Source: a virus | DNA length: 44,645 nucleotides | Virus record (IMG/VR): IMGVR_UViG_3300049003_000015 | Coordinates: 1 to 44,645 of that record | Direction: 5' to 3' (one strand) | In this document: positions 4,730 to 41,983 of the stretch, piece after piece | Layout: every line of letters starts with the position of its first letter | Position numbering within the stretch: position 1 is the stretch's first letter | Program-made: the position numbers and the translations under genes | Notes under the pieces: model-generated | Seen by the model: only the letters and a program-made list of their open reading frames with translations | Databases searched by the model: none | What the model was told of the DNA's origin: nothing

Positions 4730-4764
4730 GAAGCCCCGACCACCTGCTGTGTGGCCGGGGCTTC
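4730..4764 (+). terminator. Strong stem-loop terminator after early operon
   Basis: GAAGCCCCGACCAC (4730 on) pairs with GTGGCCGGGGCTTC (ending 4764) with one mismatch in 14 base pairs, leaving a 7-base loop CTGCTGT. A short TTGCTG follows. It lies 35 bases after the last early gene. The long GC stem with a weak T-tract is typical of actinobacterial terminators. Confidence 0.85.
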
Positions 4765-4977: not shown

Positions 4978-5172
4978 ATGGCTAAGACCGTTGCGCCGAT
5001 CAGCACGCTGGACGCCATCGACACCGACATCCGTGAAGCAGTCGCCGACCGCGAGGCTGCCTTCCGCAAGGTCATGGTCCGAGACGACGACACGAACCGT
5101 GCGGCGTTGGCTGAGGCGTGCGGCAAGGTCGACTCACTGCTCGAGATGCGACATGGGATGGCGCACGGCTGA
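4978..5172 (+). CDS. Hypothetical helical protein (64 aa)
   Basis: ATG at 4978, six bases after the upstream stop. Acidic and almost wholly helical (DTDIREAVADREAAFRKV), probably a helical hairpin. The stop overlaps the HNH start at 5172. No family recognised. Confidence 0.7.
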   Translation: MAKTVAPISTLDAIDTDIREAVADREAAFRKVMVRDDDTNRAALAEACGKVDSLLEMRHGMAHG

Positions 5173-5444
5173 TGCCGTGGGCACGCAGCCGGCCATCTGC
5201 TGACAAGCGTGGCTACGGCACCGAACACCGCAAGGCCAGAGCAGCAGCGATAGCGCAGCTCGAACGTGCAGGCGTTGGCATCTGCTGCATCGGTGGCGAA
5301 CGCATCTACCCCGGCCAAGCACTGCACCTCGACCACACGCCCGACCGCAACGCCTACCGCGGGCTCGCATGTGCTCGGCACAACCGCAGTGACGGTGCGA
5401 AGCGCGGCCGAGCGAGACAGAACGTCATACGGATGCGGCTCTGA
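5172..5444 (+). CDS. HNH endonuclease (90 aa)
   Basis: ATG at 5172 overlaps the upstream TGA. A basic N-terminus with RGYGTEHRKARAAA is followed by a zinc/HNH core: ICCIGGERIYPG, then LHLDHTPDR (the His-Asp-His pair) and LACARHNRSDGA. This is the compact HNH type found next to cos and terminase in many actinophages and in HK97-like phages, where it assists packaging nicking. A terminator follows at 5488. Confidence 0.85.
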   Translation: MPWARSRPSADKRGYGTEHRKARAAAIAQLERAGVGICCIGGERIYPGQALHLDHTPDRNAYRGLACARHNRSDGAKRGRARQNVIRMRL

Positions 5445-32027: not shown

Positions 32028-32561
32028 TTAGGCGTTGTCAGGTTGTGACGAGCGGCGCTGCTCGCGTTGTGACTCTTCCGCGATGATTTGGAGCAGGCGC
32101 GCGGTCGTGGCCCGCTTCTCCTCGTCGGACACTTCCTCGTCGCCGAAGTACCGCGCCACAACGAAGGCCACGTCTGACGAGGACGTATCCACCACGTTGA
32201 AGCCCGCCGCCACCTGCGCGGCCCGCGACAAGTCCTCTTCCGAGATGGGCAGCACGCTGGCGAGACGCTGCACCAGCTCGGCCGGCACCTTGTGTCCGCC
32301 CTTGCGGGTCACCCTCGGATTCAGGTGGTAGTAGGCGCCCGGCATCTGGTTCTTGGAGTAGCCCGCCCTGCGGAGCAGCTCGGCCTCCGAGACGTCCTGC
32401 CCCTCCAGGCGAATGAGGGCCCGACGTGCTTCTTCTACCGCCTGAATGAATGCGTCCACAGTGTTCCGCACCTTATGGCCCTTCCCTCCCTTGGCTCCAC
32501 CCAGTAGGGGGAGGTGACGGGCTGTCGTGACTCCCCGTGGTTGTTCAGGATTTTGCGACAC
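32028..32561 (-). CDS. Immunity repressor, HTH type (up to 177 aa)
   Basis: Minus strand. Shown from the GTG at 32561; a GTG at 32471, preceded by GGGAGGGAAGG, would give 147 residues beginning RNTVDAFIQAVEEARRALIR and may be the true start. Helical N-terminal region with an HTH-like LLRRAGYSKNQMPGAYYHL segment, then helices (ELVQRLASVLPISEEDLSRA) and an acidic/basic C-terminal helix. Position, divergent from the early operon and beside int, fits the lysogenic repressor. It would bind operators in 32562-32665. Confidence 0.75.
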   Translation of the reverse strand: MSQNPEQPRGVTTARHLPLLGGAKGGKGHKVRNTVDAFIQAVEEARRALIRLEGQDVSEAELLRRAGYSKNQMPGAYYHLNPRVTRKGGHKVPAELVQRLASVLPISEEDLSRAAQVAAGFNVVDTSSSDVAFVVARYFGDEEVSDEEKRATTARLLQIIAEESQREQRRSSQPDNA

Positions 32562-32665
32562 GCCCGAGAACTTCTCTCACAGGGTTGCACACCGTCTAAG
32601 ATTCCTCCATAGTCATCTCAACGCTTCACACGGCGGAGTGAACTAGCTACAGGGGGAATGCAGAC
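32562..32665. promoter_or_regulatory. Divergent control region (repressor / early operon)
   Basis: These 104 bases separate the leftward repressor from the first rightward early gene and are less GC-rich than their surroundings. A possible rightward promoter is TTGCAC (32585-32590), 17 bases, CATAGT (32608-32613). On the other strand TTGAGA (32615-32620) is followed 17 bases on by a weak TAGACG. TTCAC-8-GTGAA (32625-32642) is an inverted repeat that may be an operator. The rightward gene has GGGGGA before its GTG. Confidence 0.6.
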
Positions 32666-38249: not shown

Positions 38250-38437
38250 CCGACCAGGACGAGAAGGGCCTCCGCTGGAACTCGGTCGGCGTCGCGGACG
38301 GCAGCGTCAACATCTGGATGGTCCCGCTCTGGCTCAAGGGTGACCGGGTCGTCAGAGCCGTGGTCTCGCCAAAGACCGCGCGATCCCTCGCCATCAAGTT
38401 GTTGCAGGCCGCCGATGCTGCGGAGGGCCAGCCGTGA
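38246..38437 (+). CDS. Small hypothetical protein (63 aa)
   Basis: ATG in an ATGA overlap. Beta-rich start (GVADGSVNIWMVPLWLKGDR) and a C-terminal helix (KTARSLAIKLLQAADAAEGQ). No family recognised. Confidence 0.65.
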   Translation: MTDQDEKGLRWNSVGVADGSVNIWMVPLWLKGDRVVRAVVSPKTARSLAIKLLQAADAAEGQP

Positions 38438-38739
38438 CCGAGGCGCAGCTTCAGCAGATGGTCATCGACCTCGCCCGCTGGGCCGGGTTCCTCCACTTCC
38501 ACGACAACGACCCGCGCCGCAACCGCGCCGGCTTCCCCGACCTCGTGCTCATCCACACGACGACCGGCCGGCTCATCTTCGTCGAACTCAAGTCCGAGAA
38601 GGGGAAGCTGCGGCCCGAGCAGGACGTGTGGCTCACCCACCTCGGCGTTCATCACGAGTGCTACGTGTGGCGCCCCCAGCACTGGGAGACCGGCCTCATC
38701 CGCCGCGTGCTGCTCGAGGAACGGCGCGCAGTCGCATGA
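38434..38739 (+). CDS. VRR-NUC nuclease (101 aa)
   Basis: GTG in a GTGA overlap. RNRAGFPDLVLIH, then LIFVELKSEKGKLRPEQDVW match the VRR-NUC core (Asp in G-F-P-D-L, Glu-x-Lys in VELKSE). The PD-(D/E)XK fold resolves or cuts DNA structures. In actinophages it lies in the recombination/replication part, as here. Confidence 0.9.
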   Translation: MTEAQLQQMVIDLARWAGFLHFHDNDPRRNRAGFPDLVLIHTTTGRLIFVELKSEKGKLRPEQDVWLTHLGVHHECYVWRPQHWETGLIRRVLLEERRAVA

Positions 38740-38882: not shown

Positions 38883-39055
38883 GTGCATCGGCAGATCGCG
38901 TGCGCGACTTCCTCAACGCCCGCGCTGACATGACGGGGATAGATCCAGAGGTGGTCACCACCGTCAGCGTCGCTGGCCAGCGGCATGACCTGACGGTGTT
39001 CGACCTCTGGGAGCTGATCGGCGAGGCCGTCAGGGCTGAGGAGCGCGAGTCGTGA
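38879..39055 (+). CDS. Small hypothetical protein (58 aa)
   Basis: GTG in a GTGA overlap. An acidic helical start, then VTTVSVAGQRHDLTVFDLWE and a terminal helix. It immediately precedes the methyltransferase. Function unknown. Confidence 0.62.
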   Translation: MSASADRVRDFLNARADMTGIDPEVVTTVSVAGQRHDLTVFDLWELIGEAVRAEERES

Positions 39056-39723
39056 AGCCCCTCTTGCTCGACACCTTCTGCGGGGCCGGTGGCTGCTCCG
39101 TCGGCTACAACCGTGCCGGCTTCGACGTCGTCGGCATCGACAAGGAGCCGCATCCCGACTACCCGTTCCCGATGATCGTCGGCGATGCGATGGAGTACCT
39201 GTCCGATCTGGACTTCCTCGCACAGTTCGACGTCGTCCACGCCTCGCCGCCGTGCCCGTTCTACTCGACGGCGACGATCGCCAGCGCCCGCAGTAACCAC
39301 CCGGACCTCGTGCCGCCGACCTTCGCGGCCCTGCGCGCCTGGGGTGGCGTATGGGTGATCGAGAACGTGCCCGGGGCTCCGATGCCCGACGCGATCGTTC
39401 TGTGCGGCGGCGCGATGGGACTCCCCCGCATCCGCCGGCACCGCCTGTTCGCGTCCTCCGTGCCGCTCATGTCCCCCGGGTGCGCCTGCACGGGCCAGGA
39501 GGTCGTCGGCGTCTACGGCGGCAAGCGCGGGTGGGGACGCAACGCTCCTCGACCCGATGGGACGTCACGGGGCCGGCGCGCACTCACCCACACCGAAGCC
39601 TGCGAGGTCATGGGCATCGACTGGATGGCTAGCCCCGGCGACGTGTCCGACGCGATCCCGCCGAACTACACGGAGTACATCGGCGGGCAGCTCATCGAGC
39701 AGTTGGAGAGGGCAGCCGCATGA
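39052..39723 (+). CDS. C5-cytosine DNA methyltransferase (223 aa)
   Basis: GTG in a GTGA overlap. Motifs: I LLLDTFCGAGGCSVGYNRAG (5-24), IV ASPPCPFYST with catalytic Cys68, VI VIENVPG (103-109), VIII RIRRHRLFASS, and a C-terminal IPPNYTEYIGGQL (IX-X like). The target-recognition region is very short, so specificity may be loose or simple. Methylation may protect the phage genome against host restriction or affect packaging. No partner endonuclease is seen. Length is short for the family, but the motif set is complete. Confidence 0.9.
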   Translation: MKPLLLDTFCGAGGCSVGYNRAGFDVVGIDKEPHPDYPFPMIVGDAMEYLSDLDFLAQFDVVHASPPCPFYSTATIASARSNHPDLVPPTFAALRAWGGVWVIENVPGAPMPDAIVLCGGAMGLPRIRRHRLFASSVPLMSPGCACTGQEVVGVYGGKRGWGRNAPRPDGTSRGRRALTHTEACEVMGIDWMASPGDVSDAIPPNYTEYIGGQLIEQLERAAA

Positions 39724-41024: not shown

Positions 41025-41182
41025 CCCCCGAGGAGCGCGCCCTCGCCGCCGCATTCATGGCCGAATGCTGGCCCACCGTCCGCGAGTACCGCGAGGGTGA
41101 TCCGCCGCCGAAACGTCGTCCCCGCCGCCGTCCAGAGAATGTGGACAAAGGTGTGGACACGGCTCGAAAGGGGGCGGCGTGA
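41021..41182 (+). CDS. Small basic protein (53 aa)
   Basis: GTG in a GTGA overlap. Helical start, then a very basic KRRPRRRPENV stretch suggesting DNA binding. Confidence 0.58.
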   Translation: MTPEERALAAAFMAECWPTVREYREGDPPPKRRPRRRPENVDKGVDTARKGAA

Positions 41183-41362: not shown

Positions 41363-41983
41363 GTGAGTGATGACGACGACGACGCCAAGGTCTCGCGCTA
41401 CGAGTGGGAGCGGTGGGTCCGTCGCTGCTGCCTGCCGTCCAGTTCCAAGCTGGTCGCGTTCGTGATGGCCACCTACGCCGCCCGCGACGGCTCCCGCATC
41501 TTCCCGGGCGTCGCCCGCCTGGCTGCCACGACCGGGCTGTCCGAGCGGACGGTCCGCACCGCGCTGGGCAACCTCCGTGACGTCGGCCTGATCGAGCGCG
41601 TCTACCCCGGTGGTCGGCGCGGTCAGATGGCTTTCGCGGACGTCCACCGTCTCGCCATTCCGGCCGATCTGATGGACCGCGTTCCGATGCTCAACCCCGA
41701 CGAGGACGCACTTCCCAAGCGGCAGCAGTTGCCGGTTGGAAAGCCGCGCGGAGAGGTTCCCAACCGGCAAATGAGCGCATCCCAACCGGCAACTGACGAC
41801 GTCCAACCGGCAACTGACGACGTCCCAACCGGCAATGGTTGCACCCCAACAACTCAAGGATCAGCACATAGATCAGTTCAACCATCAACTGAGGACTCAA
41901 GTTTCGGGACTGAACTCACTACGGGTGGGATCGAACTTCCGACGAACGTCATCGCTGGTCGGTTTGGGAGGCGGGGGGCGTGA
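41363..41983 (+). CDS. Winged-helix replication-initiator-like protein (206 aa)
   Basis: GTG with GGGGGG upstream. Residues 1-100 form a helix-turn-helix/winged-helix domain of the kind found at the N-terminus of phage replication initiators: KLVAFVMATYAARDGSRIFP, GVARLAATTGLSERTVRTAL, GNLRDVGLIERVYPGGRRGQ. From about residue 120 the protein is low-complexity (QPATDDV repeated), because the DNA here contains phased iterons. The C-terminal part is Ser/Thr-rich. This is the lambda O arrangement (initiator gene containing its origin). No helicase or loader gene follows. Confidence 0.8.
   Translation: MSDDDDDAKVSRYEWERWVRRCCLPSSSKLVAFVMATYAARDGSRIFPGVARLAATTGLSERTVRTALGNLRDVGLIERVYPGGRRGQMAFADVHRLAIPADLMDRVPMLNPDEDALPKRQQLPVGKPRGEVPNRQMSASQPATDDVQPATDDVPTGNGCTPTTQGSAHRSVQPSTEDSSFGTELTTGGIELPTNVIAGRFGRRGA
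41729..41835. repeat. Five phased 11-bp iterons
   Basis: CCAACCGGCAA occurs exactly at 41760-41770, 41782-41792, 41803-41813 and 41825-41835, and inverted at 41729-41739. Direct copies are spaced 22, 21 and 22 bases and the inverted one 31 bases before the first, that is, at two and three helical turns, so all lie on one face of the DNA. Confidence 0.9.
41729..41925. other. Probable replication origin inside initiator gene
   Basis: The iteron array is followed at once by about 90 bases of much lower GC content (CAACAACTCAAGGATCAGCA and similar through about 41925) in a genome otherwise near two-thirds GC. Iterons plus AT-rich DNA inside an HTH gene match the lambda oriL layout. No experimental proof. 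Confidence 0.75.

Follow-up and report, generated by a model that had tools for sequence, protein, structure and literature searches.

Five copies of the 11-mer CCAACCGGCAA, set within 107 bp of one winged-helix gene of a virus contig and followed by markedly less GC-rich DNA, raise the question of whether this gene carries the replication origin of its phage inside its own reading frame. To our knowledge, actinophage origins are mostly unmapped. A study of mycobacteriophage RepA, a protein with a helix-turn-helix region encoded for example by Miko, could only suggest that a lambda-like origin lies within repA (PMC7157519). The window analyzed here is the whole source record, a virus contig of 44,645 bases. 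The stretch from 41715 to about 41925 is proposed to be the putative replication origin of this phage, located within the initiator gene and working like lambda ori, a reading to which we assign a probability of roughly 0.87. Repeats, phasing, reading in three codon frames, low GC3 and duplex instability are all present in this stretch, and both of its elements, iterons and tract, are conserved in relatives and in unrelated initiator genes.

The initiator gene and its product

The gene product matches HTH_36 above the family cut-off in a Pfam scan (E = 4.9e-8), in line with the winged-helix gene of the original prediction, as well as phrog_1032 (6.1e-13), phrog_270 (2.9e-9) and phrog_391, 'replication initiation O-like' (1.2e-8). 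By these profile matches, the protein belongs among the HTH_36/O-like phage initiators (phrog_270, phrog_1032, phrog_391). AlphaFold2, supplied with a 21-row alignment of window and locus proteins, gave pLDDT values of mostly 89-97 per ten-residue block over residues 11-110, with one block at 81, whereas the tail scored about 50-68 and residues 109-206 are predicted to be disordered. The repeat array sits in this predicted-disordered part of the gene, and the protein stops about 20 codons past the AT-rich tract (Table 1). This model, a single confident winged helix followed by a disordered tail encoded by the putative origin, fits the mechanism proposed below.

Table 1. Coordinates of the putative origin region and neighboring features in the window
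Feature	Position	Strand	Remarks
DnaA-box-like 9-mers TTGTCCACA (exact, 41140-41148) and GTGTCCACA (41152-41160)	41140..41160	-	about 200 bp upstream of the initiator gene
Initiator gene, 206-residue winged-helix protein	41363..41983	+	HTH_36; O-like replication initiation PHROGs
Predicted winged-helix folded domain, residues 11-108	41393..41686	+	AlphaFold2
Iteron 1, CCAAGCGGCAGCAGTTGCCGGTTGG, near-palindrome	41715..41739	+	aligns with iteron 1 of L092 and L091
Iteron 2, core CCAACCGGCAA at 41760-41770	41760..41781	+	codon phase 1, PNRQ
Iteron 3, core at 41782-41792	41782..41802	+	codon phase 2, QPAT
Iteron 4, core at 41803-41813	41803..41824	+	codon phase 2, QPAT
Iteron 5, core at 41825-41835	41825..41847	+	codon phase 0, PTGN
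AT-rich tract, putative DNA unwinding element	41836..41925	+	GC 0.49; instability; GC3
ATCA at 41860, 41872 and 41884 (exact 12-nt phase)	41860..41887	+	

A PDB sequence search with the initiator returned nothing beyond one marginal GntR match, and a Foldseek search with its model gave only generic winged helices above E = 0.001, the best matches including MarR and CodY regulators. Plasmid Rep proteins, moreover, commonly regulate themselves. The generic domain and these regulator matches would also suit an autoregulatory operator array, in which the winged-helix protein is a transcription regulator of its own gene and the AT-rich tract is incidental. Such an operator is quite improbable, given that the array lies in the 3' half of the coding region rather than at a promoter, that no sigma-70-like promoter was found near it, that the PHROG matches are replication initiators, and that the array adjoins the least stable DNA in the record and is paired, in unrelated phages, with a conserved repeat in the tract.

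The iteron array

The four direct copies and the one inverted copy of CCAACCGGCAA that had been reported all lie where they were placed, starting at 41729 (minus strand) and at 41760, 41782, 41803 and 41825 (plus strand), at intervals of 31, 22, 21 and 22; no further exact copy occurs in the 44,645-base record. The array is the sole site in the record with at least four copies of any 9-mer inside 150 bp. The two-turn phasing of 22/21/22 is real, but the inverted copy and its three-turn interval of 31 bp have to be read differently. The exact match on the minus strand is the right arm of the near-palindrome 41715-41739, and because two relatives have their iteron 1 in alignment with the left arm of CCAAGCGGCAGCAGTTGCCGGTTGG, 41715 marks the start of the array, whose meaningful register is 45/22/21/22. 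On this alignment, the 'inverted copy' belongs to a degenerate fifth forward iteron, and the array consists of five direct iterons spaced 45/22/21/22 bp apart, where an intragenic iteron origin calls for at least three direct repeats, roughly two helical turns apart, within the gene of the initiator itself. An internal dyad, as expected of each iteron in the lambda family, is clear in the iterons of the relative L023 (GGCACCTGGTGCC) and in iteron 1 of the window, only partial in iteron 5 (GCAATGGTTGC), and missing from iterons 2-4. After iteron 5 comes TGCACCCCA, a sequence that both tailed relatives described below share without change.

Copies of the repeat fall in all three codon frames, GC3 drops from 0.82 to 0.27, and synonymous resampling fails to recreate the pattern; together these argue for selection at the DNA level, so that in the putative origin region the constraint appears to fall on DNA rather than on the low-complexity protein, as had been predicted. 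The opposite explanation, a functionless by-product of protein repeats or of a recent tandem duplication in low-complexity coding DNA, could appeal to the partly repetitive sequence of the tail (QPATDDV-QPATDDV) and to the commonness of low-complexity tails, yet it is the least likely of the alternatives weighed here. Not one of 40,000 synonymous-codon shuffles of the initiator gene produced five copies of any 11-mer, a single 11-mer is encoded in three frames and the codon-phase data contradict this explanation, GC3 falls to 0.27 solely in the tract, the iterons survive about 50% protein divergence with an altered codon frame, and the same architecture recurs in 46 initiator clusters among the matches listed in the phage-wide comparison.

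The AT-rich tract

An easily melted AT-rich tract directly adjoins the iterons. Its GC content is 0.49, compared with 0.68 for the whole record, and its base composition is A28 C25 G19 T18. Local GC and stability profiles bear out the less GC-rich 90-base tract of the original prediction and place the record minimum there: the lowest-GC 90-mer begins at 41832 (GC 0.467) and the least stable 90 bp, by nearest-neighbor energy, at 41848 (z = 4.8). Within the initiator gene, the tract's GC3 of 0.27 (0.82 upstream) is below that of all 5,393 other 30-codon windows of the comparison (mean 0.85), and under synonymous resampling the tract had a GC of 0.675 +/- 0.021 and never reached 0.467. The second lowest-GC stretch of the record, at 32541-32660 between the integrase and anti-repressor genes, is probably regulatory.

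Inside the tract, the strongest autocorrelation is at a lag of 12 (p = 0.0016). The phased ATCA triple appeared in 0 of 20,000 synonymous resamples, and no second triple of this type was found in the record on either strand at lags of 8-15. Its third ATCA falls within CAACCATCA (41879-41887), which is one mismatch off a repeat, GAACCATCA, that recurs in many phages.

Conservation in close relatives

Single-sequence searches of viral and genome contigs, and a two-sequence profile run against genome contigs, returned no relatives; the profile search that yielded four loci gave the same set when repeated with three sequences. The close family comparison rests on two tailed relatives from IMG/VR, L092/L023 (48% protein identity) and L091 (50%). 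When the DNA of the window was aligned with both, as the original prediction had proposed, all five iterons aligned, and their spacing proved to persist (44/22/21/22 in L091 and 34/21/21/22 in L023) while letters and amino acids change. The repeat is uniform inside each genome and differs between genomes, taking the forms CCAACCGGCA-A, CCAACCGGCA-C/G and CACCGGCA among the window, L091 and L023. The codon phase of iteron 2 is 1 in the window and L091 but 2 in L023, where QPA stands in place of the NRQ of the window, and that of iteron 1 is 1 in the window but 2 in L091; these shifts of phase between relatives, which arise where indels move the frame, indicate that the DNA has been preserved while the amino acids were altered. 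Where a residue of the iteron cores or of TGCACCCCA is invariant, its codon keeps the third base in 9 of 9 cases; the winged helix does so in 15 of 44 (p = 3e-4). Reading in three frames, third-base identity and frame shifts between relatives all mark the repeats as constrained at the level of DNA. The strongest lag in the AT-rich tract is likewise 12 in the relatives (p = 0.085 in L091 and 0.0004 in L092/L023).

Two further winged-helix relatives, L093 and L094 (about 5001-5330; 47% and 42% identity), end at about 100-150 residues and have no tail, iterons or tract; they are possibly regulators, or initiators with an origin elsewhere. Relatives that keep the protein and lose the repeat spacing had been named as evidence against the origin. 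As L093 and L094 are short and lack both tail and iterons, no relative retains the tail with its spacing lost.

The Mycobacterium phages IdentityCrisis, phiGD21-1 and phiGD34-2 (L011:2956, L012:3001 and L013:2965) share with L092 (5494-5503) the palindrome GTTACGTAAC just past the AT-rich tract, and the window carries a degenerate GTTTCGGGAC where it aligns.

A tract repeat shared among phage initiator genes

Three spaced copies of AACCGGCA were found at 64 loci in IMG/VR, compared with 8 for the reversed pattern, and the array lay strongly within a winged-helix initiator gene at 16 of the 64 loci and at none of the 8 controls under the same HMM search. Downstream of the arrays in this iteron-selected set, GAACCATCA (at most one mismatch) occurs in 29 copies against 0.45 expected. 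A second query of IMG/VR with GAACCATCA-N2-6-GAACCATCA retrieved at least 120 loci; among the matches listed, the repeats lie on the coding strand of HTH_36/O-like initiator genes in 94 of 120 cases, while the reversed control pattern placed 0 of 36 loci in initiator genes. The iteron-pattern search and the GAACCATCA search therefore converge on the same kind of gene. The winged-helix HMM was partly seeded from iteron-selected loci, and 21 of 21 sampled relatives match HTH_36 and replication-initiation PHROGs in agreement with it.

Clustering at 60% identity sorts the 94 initiator loci among the matches listed into 46 groups, and 30 of these have GAACCATCA copies in at least two codon phases. 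Exact copies are distributed 157/24/31 over the three phases, phase 0 thus holding 157 of 212, a bias suggesting that some copies may be selected at the protein level. Upstream of GAACCATCA, 92 of the 94 listed loci carry repeated 7-mers or longer, mostly 21-23 bp apart and of many differing sequences. The tract copies themselves are mostly spaced 11 or 12, with none on the opposite strand in the listed loci, and winged-helix codons have a GC3 of 0.61 where tract codons have one of 0.30, the tract being below the helix in 91 of 93 listed GAACCATCA loci. Pseudomonas phage TC7 is a named example, as is Sphingopyxis VSN-002 with weaker tract copies, and the three Mycobacterium phages mentioned above carry arrays with CCGGA-type cores at the corresponding position within the gene. 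SfV and mEp460 carry GAACCAGTCA in place of GAACCATCA, and Aggregatibacter S1249 has iterons and no tract motif, exceptions by which the motif is common rather than universal. Near-matches to GAACCATCA number one in the window tract (CAACCATCA) and none in L091/L092, so that any link of the 12-nt repeat to the phage-wide motif is no more than suggestive.

A search with paired CCAACCGGCAA gave four matches, two of which were not initiators; L007 was rejected as a membrane protein with NRQA repeats and L010 as AT-rich DNA with no clear gene. The initiators of the actinophages Jace, Schmidt, DelaGarza, Huphlepuff and Kithara (L261-L265), which share with L117 only its C-terminal domain (pattern DYW...TWRNW), contain no GAACCATCA, and most of them have simple repeats rather than an iteron array. 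They show a local intragenic GC3 drop (0.35-0.40), often with simple tandem repeats, and perhaps represent a further intragenic origin type.

In the open-access literature, no prior description of a widespread GAACCATCA tract repeat was found, and among the literature matches listed for tract-motif strings, mostly primer lists, none concerned replication origins. The 2006 survey of phage replication modules by Weigel and Seitz (cited in PMC7145576) may list some such repeats.

Comparison with known replication systems

The O protein of lambda binds four iterons located midway along the gene that encodes it, the adjacent tract opens and helicase is loaded (PMC5043065, PMC7466680). The window has a matching layout: by our computation, the four intragenic iterons of lambda ori are spaced 20/24/23 and read in codon phases 0, 2, 2 and 1, and lambda O likewise has an N-terminal DNA-binding domain and an AT-rich tract downstream of the iterons (PMC7466680). 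The lambda-type origin originally predicted thus holds for the layout of intragenic iterons and tract, but not for the protein family. PF04492 (Phage_rep_O) is absent from the window record, where the lambda control scored 2.5e-38. Lambda O also has a large post-origin region and an adjacent P gene, whereas no P, DnaC-type or DnaB-type gene was found in the window (PF06992 among the families without a match), and its initiator, as modeled, lacks a folded C-terminal domain contacting a loader. With no match to PF04492, no P gene found and no C-terminal domain, the window initiator falls outside the lambda O family in the strict sense. The lambda tract strand, furthermore, is almost all purine (PMC5043065), unlike that of the window.

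The HTH_36/O-like initiators (94 listed IMG/VR loci, and TC7) share with the window an AT-rich tract and intragenic iterons mostly 21-23 bp apart. Their tracts contain 11-12-bp repeats, compared with one near-GAACCATCA and an own 12-nt ATCA phase in the window, and many of them are longer than the window protein and adjoin a P, DnaC or DnaB gene. Plasmid pSK41, of the RepA_N type, has its Rep boxes midway along rep, and the stretch of Rep encoded by the ori is a linker that the protein can do without (PMC5703833). RepA_N initiators (pSK41, pSK1) are winged-helix proteins too, with the RepA structures 4pt7, 4pta and 5kbj in the Foldseek top ten; however, PF06970 is not among the window Pfam matches up to E = 0.1, and the window protein has no C-terminal host-interaction domain. 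RepC of repABC plasmids was matched only at E = 0.01 (RP-C, PF03428; 16.1 bits against a cut-off of 24.4). On inspection, Miko repA has no intragenic iteron array, and Miko possesses parABS instead of an integrase. By these searches and comparisons, the window is not a RepA_N, RepC or Miko-type actinophage replicon. Phage P1 repL/oriL is a further case of an origin inside an initiator gene, and its function is lost when an A/T-rich stretch is altered synonymously (PMC9948254); the available part of its description mentions no iteron array.

Mycobacteriophages Miko and Rachaly, in which a parS of five repeats comes immediately after repA (PMC7157519), also offer a precedent for a centromere-like partition site, and the array could in principle be such a parS, or a packaging or recombination site. 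This is very unlikely for the window: no ParA-type ATPase (PF13614) was found in its record or in those of the relatives, an integrase gene is present, and the repeats are internal to a winged-helix initiator gene, with an unwinding-type tract downstream of them.

Proposed mechanism and implications

On the reading of 41715-41925 as a replication origin, binding, melting, strand capture and helicase loading would all occur there. By analogy with lambda, the winged-helix domain of the initiator would bind the five iterons of about 22 bp, and because these are two helical turns apart, the bound molecules would stack on one face of the DNA. The stacked initiators could then strain the neighboring AT-rich tract until it opens, one strand with its 12-nt-phased ATCA repeats would be kept open, and host DnaB helicase would be recruited. 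The disordered tail of the protein would be mostly a by-product of an origin carried in the reading frame. Genes of PF06992, PF01695 and PF03796 were found neither in the window record, which is possibly incomplete, nor in those of the two tailed relatives, and host helicase and loader are accordingly presumed, unless a loader gene went unrecognized.

At Vibrio cholerae ori2, iterons stand beside regularly spaced ATCA, which RctB binds as single-stranded DNA (PMC11711613, PMC10316083, PMC10797057); as described, ori2 lies outside its initiator gene, whereas the candidate origin of the window lies inside. The binding of ATCA by RctB may suggest how the window's ATCA array, and the ATCA at the end of GAACCATCA, are recognized; the link is a four-base likeness that is a lead only and, between the window tract and ori2, may be coincidence. 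Tentatively, at somewhat less than even odds, many HTH_36/O-like initiators might have in common one strand-specific melting-zone code, GAACCATCA in an 11-12-nt phase on the coding strand, kept while the iterons vary because the initiator, or the step that loads the helicase, recognizes it in single-stranded form; the window's 12-nt ATCA array would then be a diverged form, and its likeness to the RctB sites would reflect common or convergent recognition.

If correct, the position, register and melting zone of a putative actinophage origin can be read from sequence alone, and phage origins may be found by searching for a DNA repeat in several codon frames beside a GC3 drop. Direct tests are possible in the two relatives and in isolates growing on Mycobacterium smegmatis, with a similar intragenic array in IdentityCrisis gp55. 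A conserved melting-zone repeat would also make the recognition of melted strands by non-DnaA initiators testable in many phages.

Genome context and host

The terminase of the record is closest to those of Rhodococcus and Arthrobacter phages (about 30% identity), and most terminase matches are to Mycobacterium, Arthrobacter and Gordonia phages. Together with the integrase, anti-repressor, RecE-like exonuclease and WhiB encoded by the record, these matches indicate a temperate actinophage or a fragment of one, and the terminase and WhiB agree with the host group originally suggested.

The exact 9-mer TTGTCCACA is the record's only exact actinobacterial DnaA box, with its one-mismatch neighbor GTGTCCACA 12 bp off, and one-mismatch matches across the record show no excess over chance. 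L091 has DnaA boxes at 4747 (plus) and 4806 (minus), about 170-230 bp upstream of its initiator gene. The 9-mers at 41140-41160 are possible accessory sites. The cumulative GC-skew minimum (43174) is close to the array rather than on it, in a flat, uninformative stretch. The early region near the putative origin also encodes a VRR-NUC nuclease (38434-38739, plus strand) and a C-5-cytosine-methylase-like protein (39052-39723, plus strand; phrog_363, 5e-33).
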